A stretch of DNA of 51,598 nt from assembly GCA_030451825.1 (NCBI GenBank), contig JAKDNL010000003.1, positions 1-51,598 on the forward strand, given 5' to 3'. Numbering within the stretch: the stretch's first letter is position 1; every line of letters starts with the position of its first letter. The stretch is from Pseudonocardia sp. (GTDB lineage Bacteria; Actinomycetota; Actinomycetes; Mycobacteriales; Pseudonocardiaceae). Positions 1 through 51,430 of this stretch are shown here, in pieces. Position numbers and translations under genes: made by a program. Under the pieces are notes generated by a model, which saw only the letters and a list, made by a program, of their open reading frames with translations, was not told where the DNA came from and made no database searches.

Positions 1-28
1 CCCTGACCGCGATATCCGCGCACGAGGG
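1..28. repeat. Half-copy of a CGGATATCG-type palindromic repeat
   Basis: The first bases contain GATATCCGCGCACGAGGG, which matches one arm of the full palindrome at 28,005-28,057 nearly base for base. It lies exactly where ABC-ATPase homology is lost on the minus strand. This suggests an intergenic repeat abuts the truncated gene. The window edge prevents seeing the other arm. Confidence 0.55.
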
Positions 29-2079
29 TTGTCAGGCCGGTGGCGCCGGGATCCCGTTCGGCGGCGGGGTGCTCGCCAGGCGGCCGGGGCAGCACGGCCA
101 GTCCGATCAGGACCCGTTGCAGCATCCCACCGGAGAGCTCGTGCGGGTAGGCGTCGTGGATCCGCCGCGGGTCGGCGAGCCCGACCTGCGCGAACGTGTC
201 GAGGACGCGCTCGGTGCGGTCGCCGGTGTCGAGGCCGTCGACCAGCCGGGTCGCCTCCAGGGCCTGCGAACCGATGGTCCGCACCGGGTTCAGCGAGCTG
301 CCCGGGTCCTGCGGGACGAACCCGAGGGTGCGCCCGCGCAGCGGCCGGAACCGTCGCTCCGGCAGCCCGAGCACCTCGCGGCCGACGAGCTCGACCCGCC
401 CGCTCGCCCGGCCGGTGTCGGGGAGCAGGCGCAACAAGGAGTCGGGCTGTTCGAGCCCGAGCAGCAGGCGGATCGCGGTCGTCTTTCCCGAGCCGGACTC
501 CCCCACCAACGCATGGGTCGTTCCGGCGGGAACCGCGAAGGAGACGTCGTCGACGGCGGTGACGCGCTTCCCCTCCCGCCCGAAGGTCTTGGTGACTCCC
601 TGGACCTCGATCTTCGTCGGCTCGTCCGGGCCGGCCGCGCGATCGGCGCCGACGGCCCTCAGCTCGGCGCTCGTGCCCAGGTTGAACCAGTCCTCGCCGG
701 AGTTCGCATCGGTCAGGACGCTCGCGACGGTGCCGGCGTCGATGATGCTGCGGGTCAGCTCGTAGGCCGGCACCGTGTCCTTGCCGAACTCGATCCGCTC
801 GGTGAAGGTCACGACGTCGTAGGACCGGATGGTCACCTCAAACCCGAGCCGGCGCAGCTGCTGGGACACCAGCTCGTCGACGGTCTTCGAGGTGGCCAGG
901 TACGGGTTGGAGTGCAAGGTGATCGTCAGCCGCCGCCCGTCGCGGGTGCGGACCCCGTCCGGGCCCGGTTCCCAGCCGGCCTCCTCGAGCAGCCGCGCCG
1001 CGGCGGCGGGGTCGAACATGAACGACGAGCGGTGGTCGGTGGCGCCGGGGGTGTTGCTCTGGAACAGCGACTCGGCGAGCAGCCAGTCCGGCGTGTAGAC
1101 CGTGGAGAGGATCTCCTCCCGGTCGATGCCGTGCTGCAGCGCGCGGCGGACCCGGACGTCGTCGAACGGCGCGACCTTCGTGTTGATCGCCATGCCGGCG
1201 ACGAACCCCAGATAGCGGGGCGCCGCGGCGGTGAAACCGAGCGCGGTGACCGACTCGAGCTCCTTCGGCGACGGGTTGTAGGCGACGTCGGCCTGGCCCG
1301 CCTGGACCGAGGCGCTGCGCAACCGCTGCTCGGCGACGACCTCGTAGGTCAGCGTCTCGATCCGGGCCGGGCCCTGGTGCTCGAAGACCGCGGGAGCCCA
1401 GTCGTAGTCCGGGCGCCTGCGCAGCACGACGTGGTCCTCGTCGCGCCAGGACTCGACGACGTAGGGGCCGCTGCCGATGTCGTTGGACAGGTCGGCCTGC
1501 TGCTCGGCGGGCAGGGCGAGGGATCTCGGCGAGATCAGGATCGAGCCGTGGTAACCCAGCGTCGCGACGAACCCCAGCGTCGGGGAGCCGAACCGGACCC
1601 GGACCGTCACCGGGTCGAGTGCTTCGGCGCGCTGGTAGCTCTTGGGGAACAGGCCGATCGGCTTGATCCCGCGGGTCGCGTCACCGCGGGCCCACATGTC
1701 GAGGTTGGCGACGACGGCCGCCGCGTCCAGCGGGGTGCCGTCGGAGAACGTGACGCCGGGGCGCAGGTGCAGGGTGAACTCGGTGGCCCGGTCGTTGCGC
1801 TCCCAGCGTTGCGCGATCCACGGCGACACCTTCCCGGTGTCGTCGACGTAGACGAGCTTGTCGGTGACGTGGCCCCAGATGTGCCCCTGGAAGCTGGAGA
1901 TCGCCGAGTTGTTCGGGATCCAGGTGTCGCCGAGTGAGTCGATGAGGAAGGTCAGGCCGTTCGCGCGGTCGGCCTCGGCCGCGTTCCCGGTCGCGCAGCC
2001 GGACGCGAGCATCGCGCTCGCGACGGTGAGGCCCGCCGCTCGCAGCAGCGTCCGGCGCGAGAGGGACGGACGTCGTCAT
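1..2079 (-). pseudogene. Peptide-type ABC substrate-binding protein fused in frame to an oligopeptide ABC ATPase (decayed, runs off left edge)
   Basis: One minus-strand frame is open from about 2,075 to the window edge. It begins with a twin-arginine leader (SRRTLLRAAG) and a lipobox (LASGC), followed by a family-5 DppA-like solute-binding domain to about 690. Without a stop it then enters an oligopeptide ATPase at about 640, with Walker A GESGSGKT, the Q-loop FVPQDPGSSLNP and the signature LSGGMLQRV. The binding domain lacks its C-terminal lobe, no permease genes intervene, and ATPase homology ends before Walker B at about position 80. The only upstream ATG (2,077-2,079, overlapping the stop of the acyl-CoA dehydrogenase remnant) is one base out of frame with the leader, with the shift near 2,062-2,066. 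The family is a peptide or nickel importer. In-frame deletion plus frameshift points to a non-functional relic rather than a designed fusion. Confidence 0.75.
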
Positions 2080-5280: not shown

Positions 5281-5799
5281 CGGTCCCCCTTCTCCTGGGC
5301 CCACCCGGCGGCGATCGGCGTGTCGAGTCGTTCGGCGAACGAGGCCGACGGGCTGTTGCTCGGATGCCCGCCTGCTGCCCGTTACGTCGTCGCCGATCGC
5401 CGATCGCGTAGACCGAGACGTATTGCCCGCCGTCACCGGCCGCACGGCGGACGAGTCCGCCGGGTAGCGCAGCCGGCGGGGCCCTGCAGCTGCCCTGGGT
5501 CAGCCGAGGTCCTCGGCCGGTGCGGGATCGGGCGGATCGAGGCCGAGCCGGCGGACGTCGAGCACCGCGAACACCCTCGGCGACACGCTCACCGAGGCCG
5601 CCCGCCGGTTCGCCGACGCCCGCTTCGTGTTCGCCTCGGAGACCGAGCGCCAGGAGTTCCGGCTCGCCGAGATGGTGGAACAGGGCCGGATCCGGGGTCG
5701 TGCACGCGGCCCGCACGGCGTCGACGCGCTCCGGGCTCAGCCAGCGGGGCGGAGGTGCCCCCTCCAGCGACGTGATCACCACCCCGGTCTCCTCGCCGG
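5281..5799. other. Gene-poor stretch with two apparent coding remnants converging near 5,690
   Basis: No complete gene is visible. On the plus strand, 5,558-5,690 has strong third-position G/C bias and would encode NTLGDTLTEAARRFADARFV and further Glu-rich sequence with no start. On the minus strand, about 5,790-5,690, just downstream of the fdhA remnant, encodes VVITSLEGAPPPRWLSPERV and loses coding character at the same place. Neither family is recognised. The bases from 5,281 to about 5,550 hold only the antiporter ribosome-binding site and upstream region. Confidence 0.35.
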
Positions 5800-6411
5800 T
5801 CAGACCGTGATCAGCCCGTGCGGGTCGAGGACGAACTTCTCGGCCACCCCGGAGTCGAACTGCGCATACCCCTCTGGAGCCTGGTCCAGGGAGATGACCG
5901 TCGCGTTCACCGCCTTCGCGATCTGCACCTTGTCGCGCAGGATCGCGTTCATCAGCCGGCGGTGGTAGCGCATGACCGGACACTGGCCCGTGGTGAACGA
6001 CTGCGACTTCGCCCAGCCCAGACCGATCCGGATCGACAGGCTCCCCTCCTTGGCCGCGTCGTCCGCGGCGCCCGGGTCGCCGGTGACGTAGAGACCCGGG
6101 ATGCCGAGCTTCCCGGCCGCGCGGGTCACCTCCATGATCGAGTTCAGGACGGTGGCCGGTGCCTCACCGGCACCCTTCCCGTGCCCGCGGGCCTCGAACC
6201 CGACCGCGTCCACCGCGGCGTCGACCACGGGCTCGCCGACGATCTGCTCGATCTTCTCCGGCAGCGTGCCGTCCTCGGTGAGGTCGACGGTCTCGCAACC
6301 GAAGCTTCGTGCCTGGGCGAGACGGCCGGCGATCATGTCGCCGACGATCACCACCGAGGCGCCCAGGAGCTGCGCCGACGCCGCCGCGGCCAGCCCCACC
6401 GGTCCGGCACC
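5800..6411 (-). pseudogene. fdhA: Glutathione-independent formaldehyde dehydrogenase, 3' half
   Basis: The 203 codons up to the TGA at 5,800 match the C-terminal half of zinc-dependent, glutathione-independent formaldehyde dehydrogenase (about 390-400 residues when complete). The retained part includes the NAD-binding start AGPVGLAAAASAQLLG, the AVDAVGFEARGHG segment, VTRAAGKLGIPGLYVTGDPG and the GLGWAKSQSFTTGQ stretch. The catalytic zinc ligands, all in the N-terminal half, are absent. Homology stops at about 6,411, where the opposite strand immediately begins with the interior of pduC. No usable start codon or RBS is left. The enzyme would oxidise formaldehyde to formate; this copy cannot. 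Confidence 0.85.
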
Positions 6412-6413
6412 CG

Positions 6414-7646
6414 GACAACCCGGTGCAGGTCGCCGCGGACGCCGCCGAGGCGGCGCTGCGCGGCTTCGCCGAGCTGGAGACGACGCTGGGCGTGGTGCGT
6501 TACGCGCCGCTGGTGGCCATCGCGCTGCAGGTCGGCGCACAGACCGGCCGGGGTGGCGTGATCACCCAGTGCGCGCTGGAGGAGGCCACCGAGCTCGAGC
6601 TCGGCATGCGCGGCATCACCGCGTACGCGGAGACGATCTCGGTCTACGGCACCGAGGCGGTCTTCGTCGACGGCGACGACACGCCCTGGTCGAAGGCGTT
6701 CCTGGCGTCGGCCTACGCCTCGCGCGGGATCAAGATGCGCTTCACCTCGGGCACGGGTTCCGAGGTGCAGATGGGCGACGCCGAGGGCAAGTCGATGCTG
6801 TACCTGGAGATCCGCTGCATCCAGATCGCCAAGGGAGCGGGCGTGCAGGGCCTGCAGAACGGCTCCATCAGCTGCATCGGCGTCCCGGGCGCGGTCCCGT
6901 CCGGGATCCGCGCGGTGGCCGCCGAGAACCTGGTGGCGAGCATGCTCGACCTGGAGTGCGCCTCCGGGAACGACCAGTCGTTCTCGCATTCTCCGATGCG
7001 CCGCACCGCCCGCACCATGCCCCAGCTCCTGCCGGGGACCGACTTCGTGGTGTCGGGGTTCTCCGGCGTGCCCAACGAGGACAACATGTTCGCCGGGTCG
7101 AACTGGGACCCCGAGGACTACGACGACTGGAACACCATCCAGCGCGACCTCAAGGTCGACGGCGGGCTGCGCCACGTGCCCGAGAAGGAGATCCTCGCGG
7201 TCCGGAACAAGGCGATCCGGGCGTTGCAGGCGGTCTACCGCCACCTCGACCTGCCGCCGATCACCGACGACGAGGTCGAGGCCGGCACCTACGCCCACGG
7301 CAGCAACGACCTGCCGCTGCGCGATGTCCTCGCCGATCTCAAGGGTGCGAAGGCGGTGATGGACCGCGGCATCGGCGGGCTCGACCTGGTGGCCGCCCTG
7401 GAGAAGGGCGGCTTCCGCGACATCGCCGAGAACCTGCTCGCGGTCCTGCGCCAGCGCGTGGCGGGTGACCTCCTGCAGACCTCGGCGATCCTCGACCGGG
7501 ACATGCAGGTGCAGTCCGCGATCAACGACGCGAACGACTACGCCGGGCCCGGCACCGGCTACCGGCCCTCCGGCGAGCGGTGGGAAGAGATGAAGAAGCT
7601 GCGCCACGTGCTGAGCGCGAGCAACCCCGAGAACGAGGTCGAGTGA
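6414..7646 (+). pseudogene. pduC: Propanediol/glycerol dehydratase large subunit, 5'-truncated
   Basis: The 410 codons to the TGA at 7,644-7,646 are near-canonical B12-dependent diol dehydratase alpha subunit. They start at DNPVQVAADAAEAALRGF, which is roughly residue 150 of the about 554-residue family. Retained motifs include ALEEATELELGMRG, YGTEAVFVDGDDTPWSK, TSGTGSEVQMG and ECASGNDQSFSHSPMRRTAR. The N-terminal part of the TIM-barrel subunit is missing. The frame is open further upstream only because it reads antisense through the fdhA remnant. No RBS or start codon suits the truncated product. pduD follows 2 nt after the stop. Unless translation begins unconventionally, the dehydratase core is inactive. 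Confidence 0.85.
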
Positions 7647-7648
7647 TC

Positions 7649-8245
7649 ATGACGTCCTCCACCACCGGCGAGGTCGCCGGCCGCACCGTCGAGATCGTCG
7701 AGAAGGGCAAGGCCGCCCAGGGCACGCGCGAGGACGAGGTGGTCCTCGGCCTCTCCCCCGCGTTCTCCGGGTTCTTCACCCAGACCATCTGCGGGGTGGC
7801 GCACGTCGAGGTGCTGCGCCAGGTGATGGCCGGCGCCGAGGAGCAGGGCGTGTCCCTGCGGGTGATCCGGGCGAAGGGCACCAACGACCTCGCCAAGATC
7901 GCCCACGCCGCGGCGCGCCTGTCCGGGTCGGGCATCGGGATCGGCGTCCTGTCCCGCGGCACCTCGATGATCCACCAGAAGGATCTGCCGAAGCTGAGCA
8001 GTATGGAGCTCTTCCCCCAGGCTCCGCTGCTGGTCCCGGAGACCTTCCGTGCCATCGGGAGCAACGCGGCCCAGTACGCCAAGGGCGAGTCGCCGGCGCC
8101 GGTCCCGGTGCAGAACGACTTCATGGCCCGCCCGCGCTACCAGGCGAAGGCGGCACTGCTACACCTGCGAGAGACCGAGTTCCTGGAGGCGGGCGGCGGG
8201 TTCGTCGAGCTCGAGGTAACCATCAGCCGCGCGAAAGCCGGATGA
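7649..8245 (+). CDS. pduD: Propanediol/glycerol dehydratase medium subunit
   Basis: This 198-residue beta subunit of adenosylcobalamin-dependent diol dehydratase starts at the ATG at 7,649, 2 nt after the pduC stop. Family hallmarks are LSPAFSGFFTQTICGVAHVE, the RVIRAKGTNDLAKIAH helix and loop, SGIGIGVLSRGTSMIHQKDL and the C-terminal RPRYQAKAALLHLRETEF. It would form the base-on B12 site with the large subunit. The C terminus is complete and the ATG of pduG overlaps its stop by 4 nt. No gamma-subunit gene (pduE) lies between, where it normally sits. Confidence 0.9.
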   Translation: MTSSTTGEVAGRTVEIVEKGKAAQGTREDEVVLGLSPAFSGFFTQTICGVAHVEVLRQVMAGAEEQGVSLRVIRAKGTNDLAKIAHAAARLSGSGIGIGVLSRGTSMIHQKDLPKLSSMELFPQAPLLVPETFRAIGSNAAQYAKGESPAPVPVQNDFMARPRYQAKAALLHLRETEFLEAGGGFVELEVTISRAKAG

Positions 8246-10113
8246 GCCGGGACGGTGCGCGCCTGGTCGTGGGCGTCGACATCGGCAACTCCACGACCGA
8301 GGCGTGCGTCGCCCTGATCTCCGACGACCGTTCCACCCGCTGGCTGGGGAGCGGGATCGCCGCGACGTCCGGGGTCAAGGGCACCCCGGCCAACGTCGAC
8401 GGGGTCGCGGCCTCGATCGACCAGGCACTGGCCCGGGCCGGGCGCCGGCTGGGCGAGGTCGACGTGGTCCTCACCAACGAGGCCACCCCCGTGATCAGTG
8501 GGCTGGCCATGGAGACGATCACCGAGACGGTGGTGACCGAGTCGACGATGATCGGCCACGACCCCCGCACCCCGGGCGGTGGCGGGCTCGGCGTCGGCAC
8601 CACGGTGGGGCTGCACGCGCTCGCCGGCTGCGCCGTGGGCGACGATGTCATCGTCGTGGTCGGGGTCGACGAGGACTTCGAGGACATCGCCGACGTCCTC
8701 GTGACGGCCACCCGGCGCGGGGTCGCGGTGCACGGAGCGATCCTCGGCGGGGACGAAGCGGTGCTGGTGGCCAACCGGCTAGACACCCGGCTGCCGATCA
8801 TCGACGAGGTCTCGCTGATCGACGAGGTACCGCTCGGGATGCTGACCGCGGTGGAGGTCGCCGATCCCGGCCGCACGATCCGGACCCTGTCGAACTCCTA
8901 CGGGATCGCCACCCTGTTCGGGCTCGACGCCGAGCAGACCGCGATGATCGCGCCGGTGGCCCGGTCGCTCACCGGGAACCGCTCCGCGGTGGTCGTCCGC
9001 ACGCCGAGCGGCGACGTCACCGACCGGCACATCCCGGCGGGGTCGGTGTCGCTGCGGGGCGAGTCGCTCACCCTGAGCGTGGAGGTCGACGCGGGCGCCG
9101 AGAAGGTCATGGGGTCGCTGGCCCGGGTGCAGCCGCTTCTCGACGCGAGCGGGGAGAGCGGCACCAACGTCGGCGGCATGATCGCCGGGGTCCGGGACGC
9201 GATGGCCGAGCTGACCGGCCAGAACCCCGGCGAGATCCACATCCGGGACCTGCTGGCCGTGGACACGCTGGTGCCCACCGAGGTCCGCGGCGGCCTCGCC
9301 CACGAGGTCTCGCGCGAGGATGCGGTCCTGCTCGCGGCCATGGTGCGCACCAGCCGAGGCCCGATGGAACAGGTGGCCTCCGAGGTGCGCCGGGACCTCG
9401 GCGCGAGGGCGGGCCGGGCCGTGGATGTCGAGATCGGCGGCGTCGAGGCCGAGATGGCGGTCAGGGGCGCGCTGACCACCCCGGGCACGCGGGAGCCGAT
9501 CGTCGTGCTCGACCTCGGCGGGGGCTCCACCGACGCCGCCTACTCCGACCGGTCGGACGAGGTCACCTCGGTCCACGTCGCCGGGGCCGGCGACCTGGTG
9601 ACCACCCTCATCGACGCCGAGCTCGGGCTGGACGACAAGCGCGTCGCCGAGGAGATCAAGCGCAACCCGCTGGCCAAGGTGGAGAGCTTCTTCCACGTCC
9701 GCCACGAGGACGGCACCGCGCAGTTCTTCTCCGAGCCGCTGTCGCCGGAGCTCTTCGCCCGGGTCGTCGTGCTCGGCGAGGGGGGATATGTGGTCGTGCC
9801 CGGGCGCCACGACCTGGCGACGGTCAAGCGCGTGCGGCGCGAGGCCAAGCGCCGCGTCTTCTGCGTCAACGCCCTCCGGGCCCTGGAGCAGATCGCTCCG
9901 GGTGGCAACATCCGCCAGATCGAGTTCGTGGTCCTGCTCGGCGGGTCGGCCCTGGACTTCGAGATTCCCGACATGATCGCCGACGCGGTCGCCGGGTTCG
10001 GCATCGTCTGCGGCACCGGGAACGTGCATGCGGCGCTGGGTCCCCGCAACGCGGTGGCCTCCGGCCTCGTCTCCGCGCACGCGGCGCGGCCGGGCAGCGT
10101 CTCCGCGGCATGA
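8242..10113 (+). CDS. pduG: Diol dehydratase-reactivating factor, large (ATPase) subunit
   Basis: This 623-residue DdrA/PduG-family protein is a chaperone-like ATPase that releases damaged cobalamin from inactivated diol/glycerol dehydratase. Visible motifs are the N-terminal actin-fold phosphate loop VGVDIGNSTTEACVALI, the second nucleotide loop VVLDLGGGSTDAAYSD and the C-terminal GIVCGTGNVHAALGPRNAVA. Length is normal for the family (about 600-610). It is translationally coupled at both ends: its ATG overlaps pduD and its TGA overlaps the ATG of pduH. It appears intact although the enzyme it serves is not. Confidence 0.92.
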   Translation: MSRDGARLVVGVDIGNSTTEACVALISDDRSTRWLGSGIAATSGVKGTPANVDGVAASIDQALARAGRRLGEVDVVLTNEATPVISGLAMETITETVVTESTMIGHDPRTPGGGGLGVGTTVGLHALAGCAVGDDVIVVVGVDEDFEDIADVLVTATRRGVAVHGAILGGDEAVLVANRLDTRLPIIDEVSLIDEVPLGMLTAVEVADPGRTIRTLSNSYGIATLFGLDAEQTAMIAPVARSLTGNRSAVVVRTPSGDVTDRHIPAGSVSLRGESLTLSVEVDAGAEKVMGSLARVQPLLDASGESGTNVGGMIAGVRDAMAELTGQNPGEIHIRDLLAVDTLVPTEVRGGLAHEVSREDAVLLAAMVRTSRGPMEQVASEVRRDLGARAGRAVDVEIGGVEAEMAVRGALTTPGTREPIVVLDLGGGSTDAAYSDRSDEVTSVHVAGAGDLVTTLIDAELGLDDKRVAEEIKRNPLAKVESFFHVRHEDGTAQFFSEPLSPELFARVVVLGEGGYVVVPGRHDLATVKRVRREAKRRVFCVNALRALEQIAPGGNIRQIEFVVLLGGSALDFEIPDMIADAVAGFGIVCGTGNVHAALGPRNAVASGLVSAHAARPGSVSAA

Positions 10114-10466
10114 GCGCCGAGGACGAGGCCACCCGGCCGGTGATCACCATCCTCATCTCCGGGGGCGAGAACCTCGCCGGGGTGCTTCGCGAGGTCGCGG
10201 CGGGGATCGAGGAGGAGGGCGTCCCCTACGACCTCCGTTCCGGGTCGGGCGCCGACCCGGTCGCCCTCGCCCACACCGCGGCCCACGCCTCACCCCTCGA
10301 CGTGGGCGTCGGCGTCAGCGCGCGCGGAATCAGCGTCCACCATGCGAAGCTGCCCGCCGACCGCCCCGTGGCGCACGCCCGGGAGGCGACCCACGCCGTC
10401 GGTCGCCGGATGGGTCACGACGCCGCGCGCATCGTCACCGGCCTGCCGCTCAAGCTCGCCGAGTGA
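10110..10466 (+). CDS. pduH: Diol dehydratase-reactivating factor, small subunit
   Basis: This 118-residue DdrB/PduH-like protein replaces the dehydratase beta subunit during cofactor exchange. The fold relation to PduD shows in SGSGADPVALAHTAAHASPL and DVGVGVSARGISVHHAKLP. It starts at the ATG at 10,110, overlapping the pduG stop by 4 nt, and ends the operon. No shell-protein, pduP or pduO genes follow, so nothing here indicates a microcompartment. Confidence 0.88.
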   Translation: MSAEDEATRPVITILISGGENLAGVLREVAAGIEEEGVPYDLRSGSGADPVALAHTAAHASPLDVGVGVSARGISVHHAKLPADRPVAHAREATHAVGRRMGHDAARIVTGLPLKLAE

Positions 10467-15582: not shown

Positions 15583-15757
15583 GTGCCGCGACGGGCCCCG
15601 TCAGGACCTCACCGGCGTGCCGCGGCGTTCCAGCACGAAGCTTGGCTCGGGTGGCCCTCGTTGGCCTCCCCGGGTGTGCTCGTTCCGAGCTCACTGCGCG
15701 CGCAGAGGATTCGGCTCCCCGTAGGCTCCAGGTGCGACGACGGGCGGGGAGGGACGC

Positions 15758-16364
15758 ATGGTGGTCGAACGGAGCGGCAACGGCCGCCGGGAGGCCACCC
15801 GGGTCCGGCTCACCGAGCTGGCCCTCGACCTCTTCGCGCGGCAGGGGTTCGAGGACACGACCGCGGCCGAGATCGCCGCGGCGGCCGGGGTCACCGAGCG
15901 GACCTTCTTCAACCACTTCACCACGAAGCTTGACGCGATCTTCCCCGTCGTGAGTACACCTCCTTCGCGACCCTGCGCCAGCTCGTCGCCGAGGCCCCGG
16001 CCGACCTCGACGACCTCGACGTGCTGTGCGAGCTCGGACTGCGCTGGATGGCCGACGACCTCGCCGACGCCGAGTGGCACCACCGGGCCGGCAGGCTACG
16101 ACTGCAGGTGTCGGCGACGTCGGCAACCGTTCTGGGCATGCGCGCCGAAGCACAGGAACGGCTCGCCGACGCGCTGATCGGCGGCCTCGCCGCCCGGCAC
16201 GGGCGGCAGACCCCGACCCGGCCGAGGACGTGCTCGGGGTCGCGGCGGCCGCCGTCCTCCATCAGTCGTTCGTCCGGTGGGTGGAGGGCGACGACCCGAG
16301 TGCCTTCGAGGACCTCACCCGCGAGCGACTCACGATCCTGCGCGACGCCGTCGGCGCACGCTAG
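15758..16364 (+). pseudogene. TetR-family regulator with two frameshifts
   Basis: It starts at the ATG at 15,758 (GGGAGG upstream) with a good TetR helix-turn-helix, LARQGFEDTTAAEIAAAAG and VTERTFFNHFTTK after an initial basic helix. After about residue 65 the frame breaks near 15,950. The next frame gives SFATLRQLVAEAP, LRWMADDLADAEWHHRAGR and ERLADALIGGL. A second break near 16,205 leads to EDVLGVAAAAVLHQSFVRW and ends at the TAG at 16,362. Both breaks move the frame by -1, as expected for two lost bases. Joined, they give a normal TetR of about 200 residues. It would have repressed a neighbour, perhaps the aldo/keto reductase. Confidence 0.8.
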
Positions 16365-31349: not shown

Positions 31350-31904
31350 TCACCGGGGCTTCTTCATCCTGAGGTCTGCCGCAGCCCCAGAGCTCTGGAC
31401 GCCTCCGGCCGCATCGCGCAGCATCGCGAGCTGATGTTCCTGCTCGGAGTCGGGCAGGTGTGCGGTGAGCCCGCTCAGGCTCAGCGCAGCGGCGACGCGG
31501 CCGCTGTGATCGCGGATGGGCACGCTCACAGCCGTCACCCCTTGCTCGACGTCGTCGCGACTGGTCGCGTACTCGTCGCGGCGGATCCGGTGAACCTCGT
31601 CGCGAAGCTGCTCGGGCGTGACCTGGTTCGGCGAGGTCCGGCGCTGCAGTGGCCCCGCGAGGTAGGCCTCCACCTGCTCGTCCGGCAGGAGGGAGAGCAG
31701 GAGCCGCGGCCCGGCTCCGAGGTGCAGCGGCAGCGTCCCACCGATTCGCAGCGTGTGCGTGGACGCGTAGCGGCCGTCCAGACGCTCGACACACACGGCC
31801 TCGTCACCGCGGAGCACCAGGAGGAACACCGTCTCACCGGAGCGGCGGTACAGCTCACGCATCGCCGGCATGGCCCGCTCCCGGACGCTGATCCGTCGTT
31901 CCAT
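31350..31904 (-). pseudogene. IclR-family regulator, effector-domain remnant
   Basis: About 184 codons match the C-terminal ligand-binding domain of IclR proteins: RERAMPAMRELYRRSGETVF, AVCVERLDGRYASTHTLRIG, LPLHLGAGPRLLLSLLPDEQ and AAALSLSGLTAHLPDSEQEH. The N-terminal winged helix that binds DNA (about 70 residues) is missing. Homology ends at about 31,904, where the opposite strand begins with the interior of a transketolase subunit. Without the helix-turn-helix it cannot act as a normal repressor. Confidence 0.75.
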
Positions 31905-31905
31905 C

Positions 31906-32274
31906 GCGCTGCCGACCCCGGAACGCTGCCTCGAGGCCGCCGAGCTCCTCACAGGCGAGGGCGTCTCGGCCCGCGTCGTGGACATGTTCACGATCTCGCC
32001 CCTCGACCGGGACGCCGTCCTCGACGCCGCCCGGACCACCGGCGCGGTCCTGACCGTCGAGGAGGGCAACGTGACCGGCGGCCTGGGTTCCGCCGTCGCC
32101 GAGTGCCTGGTCGAGGCCAGGCTCTCGGTCCCGTTCCGCCGCCAGGGTATGCCCGACGAGCACGTTCCCGTCGGGCCGCCCGCCGCCCTCTACGCCCACT
32201 ACCGGCTCGACGGCCCCGGCATCGCCGACGTCGCCCGCGAGCTCATCGCCACCAGCAACGGGAGATCCGCATGA
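31906..32274 (+). pseudogene. Transketolase C-terminal subunit, 3' remnant
   Basis: About 120 codons match the last domain of a split transketolase (C-terminal subunit): RCLEAAELLTGEGVSARVVD, MFTISPLDRDAVLDAARTTG, VLTVEEGNVTGGLGSAVAEC and ECLVEARLSVPFRRQGMPDE. The pyrimidine-binding domain and the N-terminal subunit gene are absent. The stop overlaps the aminotransferase ATG by 4 nt, showing the original operon order transketolase-aminotransferase. The 5' end coincides with that of the divergent IclR remnant. Confidence 0.75.
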
Positions 32275-49128: not shown

Positions 49129-49653
49129 GTGCCAGGCGAGACCTCACTTGCCGACCTGTTGCACCAGCCGGTGCGGTGGCGGGTCGTCCAGGCCCTGATC
49201 GGACGCTCGCTGACCACCGGTCAGCTCGCCGAGCTGCTGCCCGACGTCCCAACGACCACGCTCTACCGCCATGTCGCCGTGCTGGTGACGGCCGGCGTCC
49301 TGCTCGTCACCGACGAGCGCCGGGTCCGAGGCGCGGTGGAGCGGACTTACGAGCTCAACACGTCCGCGGCCGACCCCGACAACGAGGCACCCGACCGCGA
49401 CCGGCTGCGGACGATGTTCACCGTCTACATCGCCGGGCTCGCCGGCGACTTCGACCGCTACCTCGCCGACGACGACCTCGACCCGGTCCGGGACGGGGTC
49501 GGCTTCCGGCAGGCCGCACTATGGCTCTCCGACGACGAGCTCACCCAGCTCCAGGAGCGCATGACGGAGGTGCTCGAACCGTTCCTGGCGCACCAACAAG
49601 AACCAGGCAGAACCCGGCGCATCCTGTCCACGATCCTCATGCCCGATCGATGA
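49129..49653 (+). CDS. ArsR-like winged helix regulator
   Basis: The protein has 174 residues from the GTG at 49,129. The N-terminal winged helix reads LHQPVRWRVVQALIGRSLTT, GQLAELLPDVPTTTLYRHVA and TAGVLLVTDERRVRGAVERT. The C-terminal helices (MFTVYIAGLAGDFDRYLADD, LSDDELTQLQERMTEVLEPF) match DUF-type extensions of HTH_20 regulators. There are no metal-binding cysteines, so it probably responds to something other than a thiophilic metal. It is divergent from the hydrolase unit and likely represses it through the palindrome upstream. Its 3' end overlaps the convergent oxidoreductase gene by 17 nt. Confidence 0.8.
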   Translation: MPGETSLADLLHQPVRWRVVQALIGRSLTTGQLAELLPDVPTTTLYRHVAVLVTAGVLLVTDERRVRGAVERTYELNTSAADPDNEAPDRDRLRTMFTVYIAGLAGDFDRYLADDDLDPVRDGVGFRQAALWLSDDELTQLQERMTEVLEPFLAHQQEPGRTRRILSTILMPDR

Positions 49654-50684
49654 CCGCGCCCTCGAACTCCCCGTCAGGTCCGTCGTAGGCGCTGACCAGG
49701 ATCTTCCCGTCGCCGGCGCCGGCAAGCCGGTCGTAGGCGGCGGCGACCTCAGCGAGTGGGAACACCGGGCCGGCGGCCACTAGCGTCGGGTCGCGGGCGA
49801 CCCGGTCGAGGGTCGCGGTCGTGTAGGTGCGCAGGTCGTCGAGTCCGAAGTCCGGCCCACCGCCGCCGAACTTGGTGACGAAGATGCTCTTGGCCATGAG
49901 GTCGGTGAGGTCGACGGCGGGCAGACTGCCGGAGAGTTCGCCGTAGCTGACCAGGCAACCGTGGCGAGCCAGAACCTCGAGGTTGCCCCGGTAGACGCCC
50001 GCACCCACCGGGTCGAAGACGATGTCGACCCCACGGCCGGAGCACAGTTCCGTTGTCGCGGCGACCACGTCGGTGTCTACGGTCCGGTCCACGACATGCT
50101 GTGCGCCGAGCCCGCGGACGGCGGATACCCGCTCCGCGCCACGGGCCACCCCGACGACCACCGCGCCCGCCTCCACCAGCAGGGCGGTCAGTTGGCGTCC
50201 CACCGGCCCCGCCGCGCCCCAGACGAGCACCCACCTGCCGGCCACCGGGAGCATGTCGGTCAGCATCTGCGCGGCAGCACCAGCCGTGACGACGCGGGCG
50301 GCACCGGCGAGTCTCACCTCATCGGGGGACCTCGACGAGTAGCGAGGTCGGAACGATCGCGTAGTCGGCGCACGACCCCGGTGAGATCACCCAGCAGACC
50401 CGGGCGCCGACGTCGTGCGCTCCGGCCGGATCCGGTCCGATCACCACACCGGCGCCCTCGTAGCCCAGACCGGTCGGGAAGCGCAGCCCCTCCGCGTACG
50501 TGCCACCGCGAAGCGCGAGGCCCTCGGAGTGGTTCACCGCTGCTGCCACCACGCGCACGAGCGTCTGTCCGGTTGCGGCTGCCGGCAGATCCTCACTCCG
50601 CACCTCGACGACCTCACATGCCGGCCCCGGTCCGCCGGCGCAGGCCACCACCCGCTGCGTCGGAACATTCACGACTTCGATCAC
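49637..50684 (-). pseudogene. NADPH:quinone oxidoreductase (zinc-less MDR) with frameshift
   Basis: The first part from the GTG at 50,684 gives TLVRVVAAAVNHSEGLALRG, RFPTGLGYEGAGVVIGPDPA and ADYAIVPTSLLVEVPR, then a stop. The second frame resumes LAGAARVVTAGAAAQMLTDM with the NADPH loop VLVWGAAGPVGRQLTALLVE and GVDIVFDPVGAGVYRGNLEV, ending at 49,637. Removing one C from the run GTCCCCCGATGAG at about 50,325 restores EVPDEV and a normal protein of about 345 residues. The enzyme would reduce quinones or enones. It is divergent from a TetR gene with paired GTAC operators. Confidence 0.85.
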
Positions 50685-50698
50685 GACTCCCCCTGTTT

Positions 50699-50740
50699 GG
50701 TACGTTGTACGAATCCTGAACTTTAGTACGGTGTACGACT
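50699..50740. promoter_or_regulatory. Paired GTACGNTGTAC operator sites
   Basis: GGTACGTTGTACGA (from 50,699) and AGTACGGTGTACGA (from 50,725) lie about 26 bp apart, between the oxidoreductase start (50,684) and the TetR start (50,741). Each is a GTAC-N3-GTAC palindrome. No RBS precedes the TetR GTG, so its transcript is probably leaderless. The sites are natural TetR operators. Confidence 0.65.
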
Positions 50741-51430
50741 GTGCGGAAGGAGCCGAGGGGGTACCGACAGATCACGGTGGTCGACGTCGTCGCAGCAGCA
50801 GTGGCGATCGCCGATGATCAGGGCGTCGAGCGGCTCACGATGCGCGAGGTGGCCGACGCGCTGGACGTGGGGACGATGTCGATCTACCACTACGTCCGGA
50901 ACAAAAACGATCTACGGGCGCTGATGGACGACCAGGTCATGGGCGAGATGGTCGTGGGTGGGCCGCTACCGGAACACTGGCGTGACGCGGTCACGCTCAT
51001 CGCTCGACGTATGCGGGAGGTGCTGCTGGGTCACCCGTGGGCACTCACCGGCATGAGGTCGACCAGCTTCAGCGTGAACACGTTGCGGCGCGTGGAGGAG
51101 TACCTCGCGGCCACCGCTCGCACGCCGCTCCCGGTCGGCGGGCGCCTGGATCTGATCGCCACCGTCACCGACTTCGTGTGCGGGTTCGTGCTCAAGAGCG
51201 ACCTCGAACCCGGCGTCGAGACGATCACCGACCACCGGCAACTCGACGAGCAGCTCGCCGCCGAGCTCGGCACCGGCAAGTACGTCCACCTCAGCGATCT
51301 CCTCGGCGGTACCGGCACCACCGCCGCCGTTGCACGCGCCTTCGCCGACGTCCAACCGCCCGACATCCGCTTCGGGCATGCACTGGACCAGCTCCTCATC
51401 GGGATAGAACGCAGCTGGTCCAGCCGTTAG
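50741..51430 (+). CDS. TetR/AcrR-family regulator
   Basis: The protein has 229 residues from the GTG at 50,741. The helix-turn-helix is VVAAAVAIADDQGVERLTMR, EVADALDVGTMSIYHYVRNK and DDLRALMDDQ; the DVGTMSIYHYV recognition helix is TetR-like. The C-terminal domain (MREVLLGHPWALTGMRSTSF, VTDFVCGFVLKSDLEPGVET) matches the TetR_C class of tetracycline/antibiotic-type regulators. It is divergent from the quinone oxidoreductase gene across 56 bp containing two GTAC palindromes, so it probably represses that gene and itself. Confidence 0.9.
   Translation: MRKEPRGYRQITVVDVVAAAVAIADDQGVERLTMREVADALDVGTMSIYHYVRNKNDLRALMDDQVMGEMVVGGPLPEHWRDAVTLIARRMREVLLGHPWALTGMRSTSFSVNTLRRVEEYLAATARTPLPVGGRLDLIATVTDFVCGFVLKSDLEPGVETITDHRQLDEQLAAELGTGKYVHLSDLLGGTGTTAAVARAFADVQPPDIRFGHALDQLLIGIERSWSSR

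Follow-up and report, generated by a model that had tools for sequence, protein, structure and literature searches.

A formaldehyde dehydrogenase gene (fdhA) and a diol/glycerol dehydratase large-subunit gene (pduC) are cut at one shared head-to-head junction in the window, the whole stretch of DNA analysed here, which is one entire contig of 51,598 bases from a 7.49 Mb draft assembly in 968 contigs. Our preferred explanation, to which we give a probability of roughly 0.55, is that a recent illegitimate end-joining rearrangement joined the non-neighbouring fdhA and pduE-C-D-G-H loci inside both coding regions, and we favour it over an assembly or library chimera. The initial annotation had proposed one deletion that spanned both divergent starts; its view that both 5' parts were lost at one shared junction holds, but the proposed deletion is not supported. 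The features concerned are given in Table 1.

Table 1. Position and supporting matches of the genes, remnants and junction discussed in the text
Feature	Position	Strand	Evidence
fdhA remnant, glutathione-independent formaldehyde dehydrogenase, C-terminal half, natural stop kept	5800..6411	-	TIGR02819 196-396/397; 1kol 192-394 of 398
Junction, fdhA-like to pduC-like, ~1 shared base, no insert	6411..6414	.	both sides aligned with relatives
pduC remnant, diol/glycerol dehydratase large subunit, natural stop kept	6414..7646	+	PF02286 147-550/552
pduD, dehydratase medium subunit, open	7649..8245	+	PF02288 and NF011616, both over cut-offs
pduG, dehydratase reactivase large subunit, intact	8242..10113	+	TIGR04491 1-598/599
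Probable pduH, small reactivase subunit	10098..10466	+	named from its position and a weak medium-subunit-like match to NF011616, below cut-off
IclR-type regulator remnant, N-terminal part missing	31353..31926	-	PF01614 only; PcaR family profile 71-241/248
Transketolase remnant, C-terminal part, facing the IclR remnant head to head	31934..32271	+	PF02780 22-124/124

The initial annotation had described both genes as having lost their 5' parts with nothing in between, which the meeting of the two sides without an insert bears out. It was equally right in letting fdhA homology begin on the minus strand near 6,411, where the GAGPVGL codons lie at 6411 (TIGR02819, 1kol), and pduC homology on the plus strand at DNPVQ (6414), where the PF02286 match begins. 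With relatives as the reference, the fdhA side matches through ...GGCACCCG and the pduC side from GGACAACCC, and the overlap of about 1 base falls within the 0–6 nt of microhomology of an end-joining scar. Near-complete DNA alignments with fdhA relatives stop at 6405–6414, and those with pduC relatives start at 6413 in three genomes (G008, G013 and G064) and at 6410 in G027. The pduC alignments of four Actinomycetospora loci and of L060 start at 6390, about 20 bases inside GC-rich fdhA sequence, as an imperfect BLAST extension. Past the junction, each open frame consists only of the antisense of the other gene. A single shared base is less than the k-mer overlap which a short-read assembler normally requires.

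When compared to the known FdhA (TIGR02819; 1kol), the C-terminal half in the window aligns almost end to end but lacks the first 195 profile positions, and its whole-protein score of 348.8 bits stays under the 636.95 bits demanded by TIGR02819. Homology begins only at 1kol residue 192, and we take both the catalytic and the structural zinc ligands to lie before this residue, which agrees with the claim of the initial annotation that the ligands had been deleted. The missing portion presumably comprises the N-terminal domain that binds zinc, as well as the first strand of the Rossmann fold. Beyond the fdhA stop, the adjoining ~500 bases (5290–5790) contain no recognisable gene, no Pfam match and no relative among the fetched loci.

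In relation to the known PduCDE and PduGH proteins (PF02286, PF02288, TIGR04491; 1iwp, 1dio), the window keeps the pduC-D-G-H order and sequence, but its pduC is without the first 146 profile positions, and the readable genome yielded no small-subunit gene pduE, which lies directly upstream of pduC in relatives and belongs to the PduCDE holoenzyme. The PF02286 match is well above the Pfam cut-off, and the loss had been put at about 150 residues before, in good agreement. In PDB entry 1iwp, residues 136–549 align with the window pduC, the part ahead of DNPVQ being unconvincing, and the full-length large-subunit profile NF011979 reaches 717.7 bits with a cut-off of 788. Part of the catalytic barrel presumably falls within the missing portion. 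pduG exceeds the cut-off of TIGR04491 by far (871.9 versus 400 bits), and Actinomycetospora DNA is collinear with the window through the pduH region to 10458. In another genome of the window's own genus (G030, loci L011 and L012), pduC is divided between two frames, apparently by an independent break.

Both pieces have been truncated, rather than being naturally short members of their families, since relatives keep contiguous 5' parts. The 5' part is contiguous and in the same frame in 18 of 19 fdhA relatives, and the four Actinomycetospora fdhA loci examined, out of five, are all full length. For pduC, the best 80 of 152 loci found were compared; the 5' part and pduE are in place in all 78 of these which have at least 1 kb of upstream sequence, the other two having been left out of the count because of a shorter flank. 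As assembled, both genes have probably lost their function, because fdhA is without what we take to be its zinc domain and pduC without presumably part of its barrel and without the small-subunit gene; both enzymes would then be dead.

The fdhA piece shows 84–88% protein identity to five Actinomycetospora loci and 71–78% to 19 other relatives. For the pduC piece, identity is 92% to four Actinomycetospora loci and 78–86% to the remaining 76 of the best 80 of 152, among them that of Actinomycetospora strain TBRC 11914, and the pduC-D-G-H DNA is 82% identical over ~4.1 kb to the four loci. In the pduC tree the window is the sister of Actinomycetospora in a joint clade with 100/99 support, TBRC 11914 being placed elsewhere in the tree, and in the fdhA tree it is again the sister of Actinomycetospora (94/90, not starred). 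Several flanking segments are closer to Pseudonocardia than to Actinomycetospora, and a 20-kb piece of another contig, meant to calibrate such affinities, matched both genera poorly and gave no calibration. As judged from these comparisons, the fdhA and pduC pieces fit one lineage, which was possibly acquired. A cross-species chimera of the two halves is unlikely, since both trees set the window beside Actinomycetospora. A plasmid copy of the block was also considered and rejected; 224 PLSDB records match, all with 60–80% identity, and none covers 80% of the query.

Neither remnant contains internal stops or frameshifts. The dN/dS ratios against Actinomycetospora are 0.13–0.14 for pduC (two loci) and 0.13–0.17 for fdhA (three loci), and 0.32–0.36 for pduD and pduG. 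The break is therefore recent, or else technical and not biological, given that both remnants are open and conserved.

If the join is real, a double-strand break would have been rejoined with ~1 bp of microhomology, the joined molecule would have lost pduE together with the 5' parts of fdhA and pduC, and the join would be present in the cell. Such an event is favoured by a join that is nearly blunt, by the parts that are missing and by a second, collinear deletion (see below). In a study on Streptomyces end-joining, half of the scars show 1–6 nt of microhomology, and deletions span 0.2–24 kb (PMC5869714). The window resembles these Streptomyces ambofaciens scars in its near-blunt join with ~1 bp of microhomology and in the loss of flanking DNA, but here the event is known from sequence alone and the joined partners are distant in relatives.

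The strongest competitor, which we hold to be a serious possibility although somewhat short of an even chance, is a technical join, i.e. a chimeric library or amplification molecule or a wrong scaffold join in an organism that would have intact fdhA and pduECDGH. It is supported by the high density of broken genes, by the assembly being a draft, by the intactness of both remnants and by partners that are not adjacent. The draft has a completeness of 94.2% and a contamination of 8.3%, and all four contigs shorter than 3 kb, among 20 contigs retrieved, consist entirely of N, so that short contigs are probably unsearchable. Open remnants with low dN/dS are equally expected from an artefact, and three suspicious joins in 51.6 kb are many for a free-living genome, which weakens the case for end-joining. 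Chimeras of multiple displacement amplification (MDA) are similar in kind; according to PMC1855051, 85% are inversions accompanied by intervening deletions, and one junction in three shows 0–1 bp of complementarity. As in those chimeras, two segments are joined and sequence is missing, and under the gene order of G027 the join is of the inverted type. However, the same study has 83% of MDA inversions connecting loci less than 10 kb apart (PMC1855051), whereas relatives have the window partners far from each other or on other contigs.

A technical join would also leave the missing parts elsewhere in the genome, but the 5' parts, pduE and 12 kb belonging to the second join were all not found in its readable portion. 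In detail, no match for pduE (PF02287) was obtained in the readable genome, in a search that had no positive control, as 0 of 14 control genomes scored above the cut-off. The same sequence holds no second pduC, the best match of the pduC 5' third is only 27% identical (E 0.46), nothing close to the fdhA 5' half is present (best match 40% identical), and the 10 kb upstream of A. cinnamomea pduC give no match longer than 143 bases. Failure to find these parts is not proof of their loss, since the short contigs retrieved read as N and completeness is 94%.

A second join lies at ~31,926, where remnants of an IclR-type regulator and a transketolase stand head to head. The two pieces are collinear and ~12 kb apart in G022, G034 and G004, so that, measured against these three relatives, the join looks like a deletion of ~12 kb with collinearity kept, a rare outcome for random ligation. 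Nothing in the readable genome closely matches the ~12 kb interval; one stretch of ~700 bases matched, with 65–69% identity in the longer matches, and elsewhere no match exceeds ~125 bases.

Further irregular genes were observed. At 6–2069 (minus strand), a solute-binding protein without ~120 C-terminal positions runs in frame into the start of an OppD-type ABC ATPase, and no permease genes lie between the two. A TetR-type regulator apparently extends over three successive frames at 15725–16361 (plus strand), and at 49640–50771 (minus strand) an alcohol dehydrogenase is split, with its GroES-like N-terminal and zinc-binding C-terminal domains in different frames. On other contigs of the same genome an enolase (L169:5869–7218), an aldehyde dehydrogenase (L175:9925–12271) and a P450 (L181:7563–8795) are frame-broken, and the aldehyde dehydrogenase also appears to be without an internal stretch.

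Counts with a frame-based HMM were made in 556 kb of other sequence from this genome (G000), of which 8,940 bases are N, and in 557 kb of finished or isolate sequence as controls, 80 kb of which doubled as training sequence. Zero-gap divergent joins numbered 1 in the other G000 sequence versus 8 in the controls, and 3 in the window, 2 of them backed by homology; this count is unspecific and a genome-wide artefact is neither proved nor excluded by it. With the same detector, 19 frame breaks were found in the remaining G000 sequence and 2 within the window, versus 7 in the controls, 0 in 101 kb of G035, 0 in 26 kb of G029 and 3 in 31 kb of G006. This is suggestive of an excess of frame breaks in G000, although at least one event is apparently two neighbouring genes instead, and the breaks inspected lie outside long single-base runs. 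A homology-based count of lesions gave 0 deletions over 27 kb of G000, too little sequence to be informative. Altogether, the pattern of broken genes is compatible with a much-broken genome as well as with an assembly containing errors. A burst of gene-breaking end-joining in this lineage, with events at 6412, at 31,926 and possibly at the fusion of solute-binding protein and ABC ATPase near the contig start, appears unlikely to us. Mobile elements were sought among the window proteins that were scanned.

Against a single deletion, fdhA and pduC are not neighbours in the relatives examined; their junction here calls for loci far from each other to have been rearranged, unless it arose as an artefact of the assembly or the library. 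The pduC loci (best 80 of 152) were inspected with up to 10 kb of flank, at least 10 kb being available upstream in 63 and at least 5 kb in 69. A close fdhA homologue is present in 0 of these 80, counted whether or not the species carries fdhA, and two hold dehydrogenases of only 25–27% identity. Conversely, none of ten fdhA regions, of which nine span 20 kb and one 7 kb, contains pduC. In all five Actinomycetospora genomes, all of them drafts, the genes are on separate contigs, and the same is true of the best fdhA and pduC, among the matches listed, in six further genomes, of the window's own genus (G008, G013, G025, G030, G031 and G033). In G027, which consists of three contigs, they are convergent and ~509 kb apart. 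An intact fdhA-regulator-pduC arrangement, which the initial annotation had advised looking for, was not seen in relatives. One small deletion across an ancestrally adjacent, divergent pair with a regulator would account for the head-to-head orientation, for the loss of both 5' ends and for the failure to find pduE, and a 36-residue fdhA-like match does lie ~21 kb from pduC on contig C84 of G013; given the gene positions in relatives, we nevertheless regard it as very improbable. A reading of the truncated genes as short proteins that still function, or as a novel pair of hybrid genes whose leaders derive from antisense sequence, can practically be dismissed: both frames are open across the junction into the antisense of the other gene and dN/dS is low, but all 78 testable pduC loci (of the best 80 of 152) and 18 of 19 fdhA relatives retain the 5' part, fdhA is without its N-terminal half, and the small-subunit gene is missing.

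Most likely, the junction reflects an ordinary break-and-rejoin accident or an assembly error, with nothing new implied, and in both cases it should not be taken as evidence of an ancestral fdhA-pduC pair. If it is technical, false joins in the window contig, and perhaps in the whole assembly, create false gene losses. Should the unlikely burst be true, B12-dependent diol dehydration and this formaldehyde dehydrogenase would have been lost in one step, in a natural case of multi-locus decay through end-joining without insertion sequences. If the favoured end-joining rearrangement is real, two metabolic functions would have been disabled by one event, which would leave a clean natural end-joining scar in an actinomycete of the Pseudonocardia group.
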